Assembly: GCF_010365805.1 (NCBI RefSeq)
Contig: NZ_CP048386.1
Location: forward strand, 62,001-126,000
Reading direction: 5' to 3'
Source of the DNA: Spiroplasma sp. BIUS-1
GTDB taxonomy: Bacteria > Bacillota_I > Bacilli_A > Mycoplasmatales > Mycoplasmataceae
DNA length: 64,000 nt
The notes below the pieces were generated by a model. The model made no database searches and was not told the origin of the DNA. It was given only the letters and a program-made list of their open reading frames with translations. The position numbers were made by a program, and so were the translations under genes. The number at the start of each line of letters is the position of its first letter. Position 1 is the first letter of the stretch. Below are positions 16,847-24,067 of the stretch, piece after piece.

Positions 16847-16868
16847 AAAAACCATTTAATGGTTTTTT
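16844..16868. terminator. Bidirectional terminator between smpB and the minus-strand gene
   Basis: AACCAT/ATGGTT stem with A residues before and T residues after, usable on both strands. It lies between the convergent ends of smpB and the small Cys-rich gene. Confidence 0.75.
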
Positions 16869-17122
16869 TATTTTCAAGCATATGCCAGTATGTTTGCTGG
16901 TTTACCACAACCACAAACTCCGCAATTTTCCTTTTCTTCTTTTAGTTCAATATTTGCACCTAAGAAATTAGAATAACCTTCTTTAAGGCTGTTTGCAACA
17001 TGTTCTCCATTTTCTAAAGCTATTAATAATGTCTTTCCTTCTTCTAACATATTTTGAATCTCTTGAATTTCAACTTTTGTCATATCAAGAACTTCAACTA
17101 CATTATTTAAATCTTTGCTCAT
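16868..17122 (-). CDS. Small Cys-rich protein of unknown function
   Basis: An 84-residue minus-strand protein. The first UGA (16874-16876) reads as Trp, so the protein ends in AYAWK rather than AYA. The body is helical and acidic (TKVEIQEIQNMLEEGKTLLI), and the C-terminal part has a tight CGVCGCGKP cluster that could bind a metal. GGAGATG lies well placed upstream of the start. It is convergent with smpB and divergent from ssrA. I do not recognise the family. Confidence 0.72.
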
Positions 17123-17208: not shown

Positions 17209-17620
17209 GGGGGTGTCCTGGTTTCGACAGGATACAACTGGCCCATGACTGCAGTGGTTTGGTAGACCTTAATACTTCTAGGTTTGATAAAATGCAAACG
17301 AAGAAAAAAATGAATTTGAAATGCCAGCATTTATGATCAATAATGCATCAGCTGGAGTTGCTTTAGCAGCTTAATAAACTTCTAAGTTTATAGCAGTTCA
17401 ACGTTATGATATGTGTTTGTGCTTCATTGAATAACGTATTACCTAGCGCAATAGAACAAATGATTTTAGTGATAAATTTGTTCGAAACTAAATCACTAAC
17501 GCTATAAATTTAAATCTCGTTGACTCTGTTGGTTTATAGTGTAAGTTAGAGACGACTAAACTGTAGACGTCATGGGTTGGAGTATTTTGGACGCGGGTTC
17601 GATTCCCGCCATCTCCACCA
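17209..17620 (+). ncRNA. ssrA: tmRNA (SsrA)
   Basis: About 412 nt. The 5' end GGGGGTG pairs with CATCTCC before the 3' CCA to form the tRNA-like acceptor stem, and GGTTCGATTCC near the 3' end is the T-arm. CTGGTTTCGACAGG at the 5' end is the usual tmRNA start. In between lie the tag-coding region and pseudoknot sequence. It rescues stalled ribosomes together with SmpB. A T run directly after CCA can act as terminator or processing boundary. Confidence 0.97.
17294..17374 (+). other. tmRNA proteolysis-tag reading frame
   Basis: Resume codon GCA followed by a 26-residue tag beginning ANEEKNEFEMPAF and ending NNASAGVALAA, then tandem TAA stop codons. The FEMPAFM core matches what I recall of other Mollicutes tags. 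The final ALAA is the classic hydrophobic degron end, recognised by Lon in Mollicutes that lack ClpXP. Confidence 0.88.
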
Positions 17621-17666
17621 TTTTTTTATGCTTAATTGTTTTATAAGAAAGGAATGTAATTTTATT

Positions 17667-19616
17667 ATGAATAATATATTAACATTATTAATTGCATGTC
17701 TTTCTTATACAACAATTATTGCCTTTTGTTACACAATCTTTTGAGGGTTAACAAGACATTTATTCACCAAACTAAAAACTTACTATGAAATATTTTTGGG
17801 ATTTGTACTTGGTTTCATTTCTACATTCTCATTAATTTTAATAACATTACTTGGTGGAGATACTGGTAATCTTGGATTGACAATATTCTTGCCAACATTT
17901 TTATATTGAGTATCAATTATTTTTATTTCACCTTTATCAAGTATAGGTATACTAACTTGTAATATATTAAATTTAGTTTTATTTTCATCTATTTTTAGTG
18001 ATTTTTTTGGTAAACCATCTGATTCATGAACTATAACTTTATTGGTTTTGGCTTACGTTATTCCACTTGTAAATTATTTTGTGAAAACTTTTTGAAAGAA
18101 TATTTCAAATTGATCAAACTGATCAATCACAACAATAATTCTTCTTTTAACAGGATTAATATGAGGTTTAGCGTTTATCAAAACTTCTCCAGCTCTTGGT
18201 AATATAACAAATTTATTATTCTGGCTTGGAAGTGGATACTTAGCTTATGCTTACATTGCGGTTATAAACCAAATCTATTTACATGCTCTTAAGTTACAAA
18301 ATATTGTAACTTATGACAACACATACTATTTAAACTTTTCTTCTGCTCACGAGCAAATCTTAAATAAGATTCAAGAAGAAAAAATTAAGCACGGTATTTA
18401 TTTAACTTACTTCATTTCAAATTTTGAGAAGTTCGAATCAAAAGTTAATTTTCAAATTAAAGATGAAGTTGTTAACTCAATATCAGAACAAAGTTACAAC
18501 TTAATTAAAGAAAACTTTCCAAATTCAATTTTCTTTAAACCTAATTACAAAACTTTCGGTGCTTTCATTCCATTTGATCTATATGAAGAATTTAGTCAAA
18601 GTAATAATAAATATTTAGAAGTTATAAAAAATATATTCTTACAGATGAATACAGAATTCAAAATTGAAAATTATAAAATTTCTATTAAATTAAAATCTGT
18701 TTGTTCTTATTATGGTTTACATTCTAATAACTTAGACAAATTGTTAGAATACAATAGACACGTAGAAAACGATTTCTTATTAACTTACCAAGAGAAAAAC
18801 ATTGTTGTAAATCCAATGGAAATAATAAAAGAAAAAAACCAAAATAAAAAAATGTTATCATTAAACGAAGTTACAAATCTAAATCAATTTGCAACATTGT
18901 TTGAACCTATTTATTCTTCAAAAACAAAAGACTTCGAATCTTACTTTTTGAATGGAATGGTAGAAGGTATAGAAATAAATTCAGATTTATTCGAAGAACA
19001 AAAAAAATTAATTTCTGATATGGGATTAGAATCTCTATTCTTAAGATATATTTCATTCCAATCATTAAAGAAATTATCAAAACAAAACAATTTTGTTAGA
19101 GAAAAAGACATGTTTATAAATTATACAAGCGAGTATATCTCAAGTGAAGATTTTGAAGTTAATGAATTTATTTTGAAACTTAAAAACTTAAAAATAGACT
19201 TATCAAAATTAATTTTAAACTTTGATATAAACAATGAAGTTGATAATCAAAAGCAACTTGAAAAAAATATTGACCTTTTAAAAAAAGAATCTATAAGAAT
19301 CTCAGTATCTAACTTTGGTTCTTTAAAAACAGATTTTGCTTTATTAAGTTGTTACAAACCAGAATTTATTTTTTTAGAAGGAGAAATTTCTAAAAAAATA
19401 AATTATATAAAAGAGAATGAAAAAATTCTTTTAGAAAGTTTAAAAATAGCTGAGAAGATTGAAGCGAAAGTTATTGCAACTTCTGTAAATAGTTATATAA
19501 TCTATAAACATCTAAAATCTTTAGGTATAGAATTTTTTACTGGAGAACTTATAGGAAGCTCAATTGATCCAAGAGAAGTTATTTCAGAGGAATTGAGATA
19601 CTTACTAAATAAATAG
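17667..19616 (+). CDS. Membrane protein with degenerate GGDEF-like and EAL-like domains
   Basis: A 649-residue protein. Residues 1-210 form about six membrane helices. Residues 223-310 have the pattern of a GGDEF domain (helix, YFISNFEKFESKVNFQIKDE, then KTFGAFIPFD) without the GGDEF loop. Residues 410-640 align by eye with an EAL domain: FEPIYSS for YQPI, FINYTSEYI for VNVS, ISVSNFGSLKTDFALL for the DDFGTG segment, PEFIFLEGEI for DxLKID, and VIATSVNSY for VVAEGVE. The metal-binding Glu and Asp residues of these motifs are mostly replaced, so neither c-di-GMP synthesis nor hydrolysis is expected. It may be a sensor or scaffold. mgtE follows after 14 bases. Confidence 0.72.
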
Positions 19617-19630
19617 AGAGGAAAATAAAA

Positions 19631-21055
19631 ATGTTAGAAAAAGAAGAAAATTTAAAAGCTTTAAGTGAAAACATTGAAAAACTAATAATAGAAAATGATA
19701 TTAAAAAACTTAGAGAGCTTGAAGAACTTCACTACCCACAAGATATAGCCGAGGCTTTAGAACAGTTGGATGAAAAAATAATTATAATAGCTTTAAGACT
19801 TTTCACTAATGATACAAGTAGTGAAATTTTTCCATACCTTGATACAGATATACAAGAGGAGATAATTAATAAAATGTCTTCTAAACAAGTTAGTGAACTT
19901 TTTTCAGAACTTTATACAGATGACATTGTAGATATTTTAGAGGAAATGCCTTCAAATATTGTAAAGAAAATTTTAAGATCTTCTACACCAGAAGCTAGAG
20001 CTCAAATAAATAATATTTTAAAATACAATGACGATACTGCAGGAAGTATAATGAGTGTTGATTACACTAGATTTAAAATAAATTGAACTGTAACTGATGC
20101 TATTGAAAAAATAAGAGAGCGAGATCAAGAATCAGAAGACCACAATACATTTTATGTAGTAGATGATTTAAATAATTTAAAAGGTACAATAGAACTAAAA
20201 GATTTAGTTTTCTCTAAAGGTGAAACAAAACTTTCAGAAATAATGGATGAGAGAGTATTGTTTGCATATACAAAAGATGATCAAGAAGCTGTTGTTGAAA
20301 AGTTTCAAAAATATGACATAACAACTCTTCCTGTTATAAATATTCAACAAAAATTAGTTGGGATAGTTACTGTAGATGATGTTCTTGATGTTATTGAAGA
20401 AGAAGTTACAGAAGACATTCACAAAATGGCTGGTATCTCACCAACAGATGACGAATACTTTAAAACAAGTATTTGAAAAATGGTTAAATCTAGAAGTGTT
20501 TGATTAATGTTTCTAATGGTATCTGCAACTTTATCTCAAATCATAATATATTTATTTATGAAAAGATACGGGTTTAATTCAGATAAGGGTTCTATAATTT
20601 ATATTGTTACAATGTTGTTAACACCTCTTTTGACTGTAATTTCAGGAACAACAGGTAATGCTGGGAGCCAGTCTTCAACAATGGTGGTTAGAGCATTGTC
20701 TTTAAAAGAAGTTGAAACAAAAGATTTCGCAAGAGTTATGTGAAAAGAATTTAGAGTAGCAATAATAACTGGTTTCATATTAGTTTCAGTAAACTTTATA
20801 AGAATGATTATAATTTATTCAATTGAAACAAAAGGTGATTTGAGCGATCCAAATTTATGATATACAATAGCAACACTTTCAATAGCGATGTATCTATCTT
20901 TAATAATGGCAAAACTTATTGGAGGTACACTTCCTATAATTGCTAAAAAGTTAAAATTTGACCCAGCTGTAACAGCTGCTCCTCTTGTAACAACATTGGT
21001 TGATGCGCTTTCAACAGCAATTTTCTTCTCTGTTGGTCTAATTTTCTTTGCTTAG
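19631..21055 (+). CDS. mgtE: Magnesium transporter MgtE
   Basis: A 474-residue Mg2+ channel. N-terminal superhelical N domain (about residues 30-135, with EALEQLDEKIIIIALRL and ELYTDDIVDILEEMP), two CBS domains (about 140-270, with TTLPVINIQQKLVGIVTVDD), then a five-helix membrane domain with SGTTGNAGSQSSTMVVRAL and the pore-side PAVTAAPLVTTLVDALST. Normal family length. It needs several UGA codons as Trp. It appears to share a transcript with the GGDEF/EAL-like gene upstream; no Mg riboswitch was recognised before either gene. Confidence 0.96.
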
Positions 21056-21086: not shown

Positions 21087-21737
21087 ATGAGATTAAGAAA
21101 TAAAAATTGAACAAAAGGCTATATTGAAGAAAATAAAAAACATATGATTAATGTTGAAGAAAAAATAAACGCAAAAGACCTTTTTAAAAAAAACCAAGAA
21201 ACCTATTTAGAGATAGGTTGTGGTAAAGGTCAGTTCATTATCGGTCAAGCTATGAAGAGTTCTAACAAAAACTTTATAGCCATGGAAAAAGAAACAACCG
21301 TAATAGGAGTGGCTTTAAAAAAAGCTATCAATACAGAAAACTTCGAATTTAAAAATTTATTATTCTTAAATAAGTTTGCAGAAAACTTATTAGATATTTT
21401 TGAGGCCAATTCTTTAGATGGTATCTTCTTAAATTTTTCAGACCCATGACCTAAATCTAAACACTATAAAAAAAGATTAACATATATTGGTTTTTTAGAA
21501 ATATATTGAAATCTTTTAAAAGATAATGGTGTTATAGAAATTAAAACTGATAACGATAATCTTTATGAATTTAGTTTGGAACAAATTCAAGAATCAAAAT
21601 TCAAAATTCTATACAACACAAATGATTTATATGCTCAAAAAGATCTTTTAAAAGATAATATAGCAACTGAATACGAACAGAGATTTCATTCAATGGGTAA
21701 AAATATAAATAAAATAGTAATAAAAAAAGAGGTTTAG
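21087..21737 (+). CDS. trmB: tRNA (guanine-N7-)-methyltransferase
   Basis: A 216-residue SAM-dependent enzyme that makes m7G46 in tRNA. Visible are the SAM-binding LEIGCGKGQFI motif, the catalytic-side NFSDPWPKSKHYKKRL motif and the C-terminal ATEYEQRFHSMGKNI segment. ATG 21087 follows AAGGAG. Its last 4 bases overlap the end of the convergent minus-strand gene, and a shared terminator hairpin spans both ends. Confidence 0.96.
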
Positions 21738-21760
21738 TCTTGTGACTTAACCTCTTTTTT
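21723..21760. terminator. Bidirectional terminator within two convergent gene ends
   Basis: Stem of about 17 bp with one mismatch (AAAAAAGAGGTTTAGTC against GACTTAACCTCTTTTTT), loop TTGT. It lies inside the last codons of trmB and of the minus-strand membrane gene. Confidence 0.85.
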
Positions 21761-22285
21761 TGGTGGATTATTAATAAAATTTAAATAACTTTTTTTGAAT
21801 TCTTCGTTTTGACTCATTAGATATCTTGATATTTCAAAAAAAAGATAAAGATATATCAAATTAATAAACATTAAGATAAAAAATACTCATCAATTGCTTT
21901 TAGCGTTTTCCGCTCAACTAACTTTACTTATTAGAGAACCACTTGTTAACTCTATAAAAAAAGCTCCAATTGAAAATATAAGAATGAAATAATAAAAGAA
22001 TCTACCCTTAATAACATTTAATTGTTTTTCATTTGTTTCTGTATTTGTTATAACTTCCATATTATAAAAAAGTGATACTGAAGTTTTATTTAAATTTGTT
22101 GTTAGACAAACTAAGTAAAACAAAACAAAATTAAGGTTTATTTGACACACCAAAGTAATTTTTGTTTTAGTTTCTAGTGGTATGCTCAATAAAACAATTG
22201 AACTGATAACTATTAAAGATAATGTTATCGATCCAAATCACAGTATTGGTTTTTTTAAATCTGATTTGATAAGTTTGAATTCCAT
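21734..22285 (-). CDS. Small membrane protein of unknown function
   Basis: A 183-residue minus-strand protein with about four membrane helices: residues 14-40, 52-70, 110-130 and 150-175. UGA codons (including the tandem pair in SNWWVFF) read as Trp. The C-terminus is hydrophilic (PPKKEVKSQD). The start follows AAGGTGAAAAT. I do not recognise the family. Confidence 0.7.
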
Positions 22286-22349
22286 ATTTTCACCTTCTAT
22301 TATTATAGTCCAAAATAGGTTATCAATACGAGCAAAAAAATTACTAAAC

Positions 22350-22373
22350 TTTTTTTTTTTTTTTTTTTTTTTT
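22350..22373. repeat. T24 homopolymer tract
   Basis: An uninterrupted run of 24 T residues in the stretch between the minus-strand membrane gene and the BMP promoter. It begins 44 bases before the BMP -10 box. Apart from this tract, the promoter and the riboswitch, nothing is recognised in 22286-22615. Confidence 0.9.
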
Positions 22374-22392
22374 AAAATTAATAAAAATTTTT

Positions 22393-22422
22393 TTGTATAT
22401 TTTGGAATTCTCATTTTATAAT
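22393..22422 (+). promoter_or_regulatory. Promoter of the riboswitch-BMP operon
   Basis: -10 TATAAT at 22417-22422 and a possible -35 TTGTAT at 22393-22398 with an 18-base spacer. Transcription would start near 22430, just before the aptamer. Other TATAAT-like sites near 22566 and 22580 lie after the terminator and could give ligand-independent starts. Confidence 0.5.
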
Positions 22423-22445
22423 TAAATTGTAAATTAAATTAAAAA

Positions 22446-22557
22446 GCTTTTATAAGCCAACATATAGGGTTGGCGTTTCTACAATGTACCAATACATTTC
22501 TAAAGGCAACATGAAAGGGATCTTTTTAATAGTGATAAAAAAAGGTTCCTTTTTTTC
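22446..22557 (+). promoter_or_regulatory. Purine (guanine-type) riboswitch with terminator
   Basis: Aptamer: P1 GCTTTTA/TAAAGGC; P2 GCCAAC/GTTGGC closing loop ATATAGG; junction J2/3 GTTTCTAC at 22475-22482; P3 AATGT/ACATT closing ACCAAT; J3/1 TC with C at 22500. The GG of loop 2 and CC of loop 3 fit the kissing contact. A C at the specificity position and a U in the J2/3 core indicate guanine rather than adenine or 2'-deoxyguanosine. Downstream, a stem at 22516-22550 followed by T residues is the terminator. P1 AAAGG.AAC could pair with GTT.CTTT of the terminator as an antiterminator. It precedes a nucleoside transporter operon. Confidence 0.85.
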
Positions 22558-22615: not shown

Positions 22616-24067
22616 GTGAAAAAATTACTTTCAGGATTGATGGCTGGAGCAGTTGTTTTATCTTCTGCTTCAAGCCTTGTTTCGTGTACAAACATAAAAG
22701 CAATTTCAGAAATTTATTTAGTAACTGATGCTGGTAAAATCTCTGATAAATCTTTTAATGAGTCTACTTATAAGGCGGGAACTGAGTTCCTTCAACAAGT
22801 TGTTGGACAAATTCCTGGTTACGAAGAATATCAAAGTAAAAAAATAGCAAGAATTGAACCTGAAAACTCAAGTACAAAAGTATTGAAAAATCAATATATG
22901 AATGCTAAGAATAATGGGGCAAAAACAATACTTTTACCTGGTTTTCACCACTCTATGCCTGGTGAAGGAGAAAATTTAGCTCCAATAGTAATGGGTGAAC
23001 AAGGTTCAACAATCATGTTGGATGGAGCGAGCTCTGCTAAAAATGAAATCGGATTTAGCTTTAGGGGTGATATTTCCGGGTTTTACGCAGGAATGGGAGC
23101 AATAATTTGACAGTTACAACAAGGTGATAAATACGACAAAATTTCTTTAGGATCTTTTGGTGGTATTTCAAACCCTGCTGCTGTTGATAACTTTATAGTG
23201 GGTTACTTAGCTGCTATAGAAGTTTTTAATGAATTTAAAGCAGATGATTCAAATTGAATCGTTTTAAAAGATAAATTCGGGTTTGATGATTCGGTAAGAA
23301 AGAAAACTGTTGAAATGACTCAAAAACAATATCCAACATCAAATAGTGATCCATCTTGATTTTCAAATTCATTTGCACAAGGTGACGGACAAGTAGTTGC
23401 TGGAACACTTATACAAAATGGTTCAACAGTTATAATGCCTGTTGCGGGACCTCAAACTTTAGATGCTGTTGGACTTTCAAAACAAATTGAAGGTGGAAAT
23501 AAAGTTAAAATAGTTGGTGTAGATACAAACCAAGCTGAAGCTTTTCCACAAAATGAAGGAATGTTTATAACAAGTGCTGAAAAAGATTTAAGAGGAGCTG
23601 TTATTGCGGGATTAGCACATACACAGTATTGAATTGATAGAGTGACTGGTGAAGGAGAAAATAGTCTTGGATCTAAGACTGAAGAACTTTTAGGTACTGA
23701 TTTCCAAGTTACAATCAAAGATAAAGATGGAAAATTTGTTGGAGTAGATGTTGGTGGAAATAAAGCTTGAGACCGAGACCTTACTTTAGATCAAAATCAA
23801 GTTAAAGAAGAAGATGGTCAAGGAAATACACTTTGAGTTGCCGGAAATATGTCTTCTGGCGGAAGAAATCAACTAGAAAAAACTTATGCAGACAATATTA
23901 AGGAAATATTTAATGTAGATGTTCTAACAAAAGCTTCAATAGATTTATTTGATAAAATTGATAGTATTCAAAAAGGTCAAACAATGATCAATGATTCATT
24001 TGTAAGTGAATATGCAAAAATTATTTTAAAAGAAATCAAACAAGGAGGTAACTCAAACAATGGCTAA
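22616..24067 (+). CDS. BMP-family nucleoside-binding lipoprotein
   Basis: A 483-residue lipoprotein starting at GTG 22616 (AGGAG site upstream). The signal peptide ends in a lipobox with Cys24 (SSLVSC). The mature part has the BMP/PnrA fold: LVTDAGKISDKSFNESTYKA at the N-terminus, a GDISGFYAGMGA segment, SLGSFGGISNPAAVDNFIVG and KIVGVDTNQAEAF. BMP proteins bind purine nucleosides and hand them to an ABC permease. The gene overlaps the ATPase gene by 8 bases, and a guanine-type riboswitch lies upstream. It is longer than typical PnrA (about 350), with additions toward the C-terminus. Confidence 0.93.

Follow-up and report, generated by a model that had tools for sequence, protein, structure and literature searches.

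A conserved Spiroplasma membrane protein with degenerate GGDEF-like and EAL domains, probably a non-enzymatic regulator

Introduction

Bacteria with near-minimal genomes rarely retain dead enzymes. What, then, is the role in a mollicute of a membrane protein that looks like an enzyme of c-di-GMP turnover and has lost the residues for it? This question is raised by a 649-aa ORF of Spiroplasma sp. BIUS-1, which we analysed within a stretch of 64,000 nucleotides (contig NZ_CP048386.1, positions 62,001 to 126,000), hereafter the window. GGDEF and EAL are the enzyme domains by which the signal c-di-GMP is made and broken down. Regulators in which both domains are degenerate are well known, with CsrD, LapD, FimX and YdiV as examples in the available excerpt of PMC10333796. 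In the open-access literature, our searches turned up a single earlier report of an EAL protein in a mollicute, U1 (PMC11535214, excerpt), but none that deals with degenerate EAL proteins in Spiroplasma. The novelty is a conserved mollicute protein in which both the GGDEF and the EAL domains are dead. We argue that it is probably a non-enzymatic membrane regulator.

The gene and its neighbourhood

The gene lies between the tmRNA gene and mgtE (table 1), and its ORF reads seven TGA codons as tryptophan. The start of mgtE, on the same strand, is 14 nt past its end. We searched the interval between tmRNA and the EAL gene for a terminator-like site and found none, so shared transcription of the two genes is possible. 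Table 1 includes two unnamed ORFs of the surroundings. ORFs resembling the one with the Cys-rich end occur near tmRNA in genomes G037, G106, G150 and G124, while the one downstream of trmB is found at the same position in g1, g3 and g12 loci.

Table 1. Features of the locus, in positions of the window.
Feature	Position	Strand	Basis and remarks
84-aa ORF, Cys-rich end NCGVCGCGKP	16868-17122	-	between smpB and tmRNA, on the opposite strand
tmRNA gene (ssrA)	17209-17620	+	46 nt upstream of the EAL-gene start codon
AAGGA, possible ribosome-binding site	17649-17653	+	13 nt before ATG, by eye
Pseudo-GGDEF/pseudo-EAL membrane protein gene	17667-19616	+	ORF, genetic code 4, 649 aa
Transmembrane region, residues 1-205, about seven helices	17667-18281	+	hydropathy, low-confidence model
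Degenerate GGDEF domain, residues 206-393	18282-18845	+	predicted fold; link via family f16
KPNYKTF replacing R-x-GGDEF, residues 291-297	18537-18557	+	by-eye alignment and predicted hairpin
EAL domain, residues 405-630, catalytic residues lost	18879-19556	+	Pfam
SNFG replacing DDFG, residues 548-551	19308-19319	+	alignment
VIATSVN replacing V-V-A-E-G-V-E, residues 602-608	19470-19490	+	alignment
mgtE, magnesium transporter	19631-21055	+	Pfam and NCBIfam matches
trmB-like tRNA methyltransferase, after mgtE	21087-21737	+	name by eye
226-aa ORF, downstream of trmB	21734-22414	-	no convincing Pfam match
Purine riboswitch RF00167, preceding the lipoprotein gene	22428-22522	+	47.5 bits
BMP/PnrA-like lipoprotein	22616-24067	+	name by eye; no convincing Pfam or NCBIfam match

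Domain composition

On sequence grounds, the identity of the EAL domain is certain. Pfam (PF00563) matches residues 405-630 with an E-value of 8.7e-18 and 65 bits, above the curated cut-off of 31.3. The EAL profile also matches all 33 aligned relatives, and the strong matches of the family profile in the PDB are EAL proteins (best E 1.8e-16). Pfam gave no match to GGDEF (PF00990) at E-values up to 1 in the protein, and none in the 33 members. The comparison of the family's GGDEF-like part with a profile of intact GGDEF domains, built from 22 of the 28 reference loci, was not significant (Prob 0.4, E 0.15), nor were those with smaller sets of 4 or 3 references. We modelled residues 206-393 with AlphaFold2 from two sequences, the second being the S. 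poulsonii homologue (pLDDT 60.3, pTM 0.62). Foldseek matched this model to GGDEF structures (best E 7.7e-4), with class III adenylyl/guanylyl cyclases ranking lower in its list, and VIA matched it to solved GGDEF domains over 134 residues with a Z-score of 10.1 and an rmsd of 3.5. We thus predict with moderate confidence that residues 206-393 adopt a GGDEF fold. A chain of profile comparisons provides a second line of support: across residues 226-648 the family profile aligns with degenerate proteins from family f16 (Prob 96.4), which in turn match intact GGDEF (Prob 84.3).

The N-terminal 205 residues contain about seven hydrophobic helices, the seventh of which is below the hydropathy cut-off used, and no Pfam domain. 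Their topology is read from hydropathy and charge only, and the full-length AlphaFold model, made from one sequence (pLDDT 40.7), served for the helix count only. The original prediction had recognized a membrane domain, a degenerate GGDEF-like region and an EAL-like region within one protein. Pfam, the PDB profile matches and the fold model agree on this arrangement; over residues 223-640, where an unrelated fold might have appeared, we obtained an EAL domain and a predicted GGDEF fold instead.

Conservation of the active sites

We compared the protein with 28 intact EAL references (of 30 loci of the class), selected for having the nine catalytic residues. The nine positions are E N E D D K E E Q in all of these (28/28) and F N N S N F T N T in the protein, which retains the N and nothing else (1/9). 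The alignment is most secure from position three onwards and less certain for the first E and for the N. That the acidic metal-binding residues are replaced (SNFG for DDFG, VIATSVN for VVAEGVE) had been noticed at first reading, and is borne out by the difference from all 28 references.

The reading of residues was extended to 49 of the 53 EAL-bearing genomes (G056, G082, G174 and G195 were left out, and locus L014 was omitted because it is the same gene as L056). Of the nine catalytic residues, none is left in 24 of the 40 proteins from the family and f8, one is left in 14 and two are left in 2. The nine other EAL proteins of the order give a similar picture (none in 7, one in 1, two in 1). 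We therefore reject an active EAL phosphodiesterase, both on the single residue kept here and on the none to two kept in all 40 family proteins. The old sites have acquired recurrent substitutions: the second D of DDFG is an N in 31 of the 40, and the last E is an N or a D in 37. One protein, L015 (genome G141), retains DDFG and has lost the other catalytic residues. The ExLxR motif is determinative for c-di-GMP binding (PMC10333796, excerpt). Its E and R are never found together at the aligned columns in any family member.

The diguanylate cyclase motif GG(D/E)EF is absent. In its place, by an alignment made by eye and a predicted hairpin, stands KPNYKTF, with its first K at residue 291 and the second at 295. 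Conservation was counted in alignment A1, which comprises 33 of the 49 proteins after exclusion of 7 near-duplicates and of the 9 proteins from other families of the order. No member has a G at either G column of the loop (0/33), and the columns of the new motif are conserved in most members (K 30, N 22, Y 25, K 25, T 22, F 27). Since KPNYKTF is itself conserved, it suggests a new role for the loop rather than drift.

Because the EAL proteins of the order keep at most two of nine catalytic residues (49 of 53 genomes read), an EAL match is not proof of c-di-GMP use. Hence, such a match in a mollicute need not have the implication drawn from it in PMC11535214 (excerpt).

Distribution, loss and selection

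Pfam detected EAL in 53 of the 298 genomes of the order, with one match each: in 20/20 genomes of the same genus, 41/60 of the family and 12 elsewhere in the order. GGDEF was detected in 6 of the 298, with one match above the Pfam cut-off and none in the family of the EAL protein. The genome itself, whose search for an intact GGDEF domain had been proposed from the start, gave 0 Pfam matches and no c-di-GMP synthase was found. The family profile A1 gave one weak match in 20 other genomes of the class. A scan of genome contigs for close relatives gave no match, and viral contigs gave none; an alignment-based contig scan found one named locus, in S. poulsonii MSRO_BK (genus g5). In family f16 of the same class (L132-L141), 10 genomes, 0.8-1.3 Mb in size, each carry a single degenerate EAL match, and these proteins have mostly lost the nine catalytic residues.

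The gene is under purifying selection, with no decay. Its ORF runs without interruption in each of the 49 proteins read, of which two come from loci with an open 5' end, and dN/dS ranges from 0.028 to 0.217 in 12 of the 13 close pairs. The outlier, L040/L043, has a value of 0.50 at a dS of 0.02. The neighbouring genes are similar to the EAL gene in this respect (0.064-0.158 for mgtE and trmB in two of the pairs and smpB in one).

The gene was lost at least twice within the family, in one clade and in G171, and must be dispensable for some lifestyles. In the tree of RNase R, SmpB, MgtE and TrmB, the nine EAL-lacking genomes that were placed form one clade (support 0.999). We searched the 19 EAL-lacking genomes, including G171, for remnants with the g5 profile and found none. 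Genome G171 (genus g5) also lacks MgtE and retains six MreB matches.

Both c-di-GMP domains are dead yet maintained by purifying selection across the clade, and no synthase was found. This makes the protein a clean test of what such domains do free of the nucleotide.

Function of the protein

The explanation we favour, at slightly better than even confidence, is that the protein is a pseudoenzyme tethered to the membrane, passing on a signal through protein contact and without recourse to c-di-GMP. Such a protein would descend from a GGDEF-EAL protein of c-di-GMP turnover. Its membrane part, of some seven helices, would sense something at or in the membrane and pass the change to the two dead domains on the cytoplasmic side, where the C-terminus is predicted to lie. 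Binding to a partner, a protein or an RNA, would then be the way in which the dead domains act; they would neither make, cut nor sense c-di-GMP. Four parts of this explanation are directly supported: the domain composition, the lost sites and ExLxR, the purifying selection and the fixed gene order. The whole draws on the EAL profile in 33/33 relatives, the 0-2 catalytic residues in 40/40 proteins, the new motif of the GGDEF loop and the low dN/dS. Several points count against it. The altered pocket could bind another ligand, as the N or N/D conserved at the old sites might indicate; the membrane topology is read from hydropathy and charge; one pair, L040/L043, reaches a dN/dS of 0.50; and the repeated loss shows that some lifestyles do without the gene.

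The first of these points leads to a sensor of another nucleotide (GTP, ATP or c-di-AMP), working through a remodelled GGDEF or EAL pocket, which we judge unlikely but worth weighing. New residues are conserved at both former sites. There are also precedents, since a degenerate GGDEF has ATPase activity in a DHH/DHHA1 phosphodiesterase protein (PMC10333796, excerpt) and mycoplasmas use c-di-AMP (PMC5508000, excerpt). However, the protein lacks any metal-binding acid, and the Pfam search found no known nucleotide-binding domain.

A more speculative idea, to which we give little credence, is that of a signalling hub in the membrane that works without c-di-GMP, was assembled from what was left of the c-di-GMP system and serves the MreB-based cell body of Spiroplasma. 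The EAL-bearing genomes of the family all have a full, strong set of MreB (41/41, best E 1e-127 or better, 4-9 matches), whereas 18 of the 19 EAL-lacking ones have weaker MreB only (best E 1e-19 to 1e-61, 1-3 matches) and the remaining one, G171, has the full set. But the 18 count as one loss as far as tested (9 placed, in one clade), and G171 has MreB without EAL. The co-occurrence is a striking lead, but it comes from a single clade and one genome contradicts it.

The neighbourhood might instead point to a CsrD-like role in RNA turnover, beside the clustered tmRNA, SmpB and RNase R. We surveyed gene order in 43 loci, 38 of which have an EAL match by tblastn, and tmRNA immediately precedes the EAL gene, in the same orientation, in 36 of these 38. 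CsrD, a membrane protein with degenerate GGDEF and EAL domains, acts with RNase E (PMC10333796, excerpt), and the CsrD model ranks with the best NCBIfam matches, at 32.8 bits. Yet this score, which reflects the EAL domain, is far below the equivalog cut-off of 663 bits. Moreover, the tmRNA cluster persists where the EAL gene is gone. We inspected the gene order of 10 of the 19 family genomes that lack EAL, and in 9 of the 10 loci (tblastn) tmRNA is still near mgtE-trmB, on the mgtE strand in 4 and on the opposite one in 5; in the tenth, G171, none of tmRNA, mgtE and trmB is there. A role of this kind seems very doubtful.

It is less probable still that the protein is a receptor of the LapD/FimX kind, reading c-di-GMP that is made by the flora of the host or by a synthase that went unseen. 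The order of the degenerate domains is the same, and there are weak matches to LapD (24.1 bits) and FimX. Against this, the LapD score is far from its cut-off of 1020 bits, no GGDEF synthase was found, and the loss of ExLxR led us to reject a c-di-GMP receptor on its residues.

A partner or regulator of MgtE is hardly to be expected either, even if mgtE is directly downstream of the EAL gene in all 28 family loci outside genus g5. In g5, trmB directly follows the EAL gene (9/9 loci) and mgtE is missing. Pfam confirms that MgtE is absent from 7/7 g5 genomes, including the six EAL-bearing ones tested, and present in 11/11 others tested. Conversely, 8 genomes have MgtE without EAL, and in 9 of the 10 EAL-lacking loci the order tmRNA-mgtE-trmB is still in place. 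One Spiroplasma clade has thus lost mgtE and kept the EAL gene, while another has done the opposite. Since the losses are independent, the neighbourhood is no sign of joint function. The EAL-mgtE order is old and stable, and the link is positional. Of the original suggestion that the gene before mgtE might be tied to magnesium, the adjacency survives, here and in the surveyed relatives outside g5; the functional link does not, as each gene persists without the other, and we rejected it as the main explanation.

Finally, that the gene is a functionless relic is scarcely credible: both active sites are gone and it was lost in one clade and in G171, but the ORFs are uninterrupted in the 49 proteins (two with an open 5' end), and decay is rejected by dN/dS well under 1, below 0.22 in 12/13 pairs.

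Comparison with known systems

The pseudoenzyme explanation can be set against proteins already described. In the f16 proteins, as in the Spiroplasma protein, a hydrophobic segment at the N-terminus is accompanied by a GGDEF-like part and a degenerate EAL part, and each small genome has a single EAL match. They differ in that the seven-helix membrane part is unmatched and their match to real GGDEF is better (Prob 84.3). Protein U1 of Ca. Oceanoplasma callogorgiae is likewise a mollicute EAL protein with a transmembrane segment, for which its authors inferred a possible use of c-di-GMP (PMC11535214, excerpt); we liken the two by description only. The EAL phosphodiesterases (PF00563, e.g. PDB 6ifq) have a clear sequence relationship with the protein over the whole domain, but at most 2 of their nine catalytic residues are left in the Spiroplasma family. 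LapD and FimX have the same degenerate GGDEF-EAL order, and FimX is one of the EAL structures matched by the family profile. Yet they keep ExLxR and bind c-di-GMP (PMC10333796, excerpt), while the Spiroplasma protein has lost this motif. CsrD (YhdA) of E. coli shares the architecture of a membrane part followed by degenerate GGDEF and then degenerate EAL domains, although its model matches the EAL part only. It is catalytically incompetent and does not bind c-di-GMP in E. coli, and both CsrD and YdiV/STM1697 are established examples of degenerate GGDEF/EAL proteins whose action involves no turnover of c-di-GMP (PMC10333796, excerpt).
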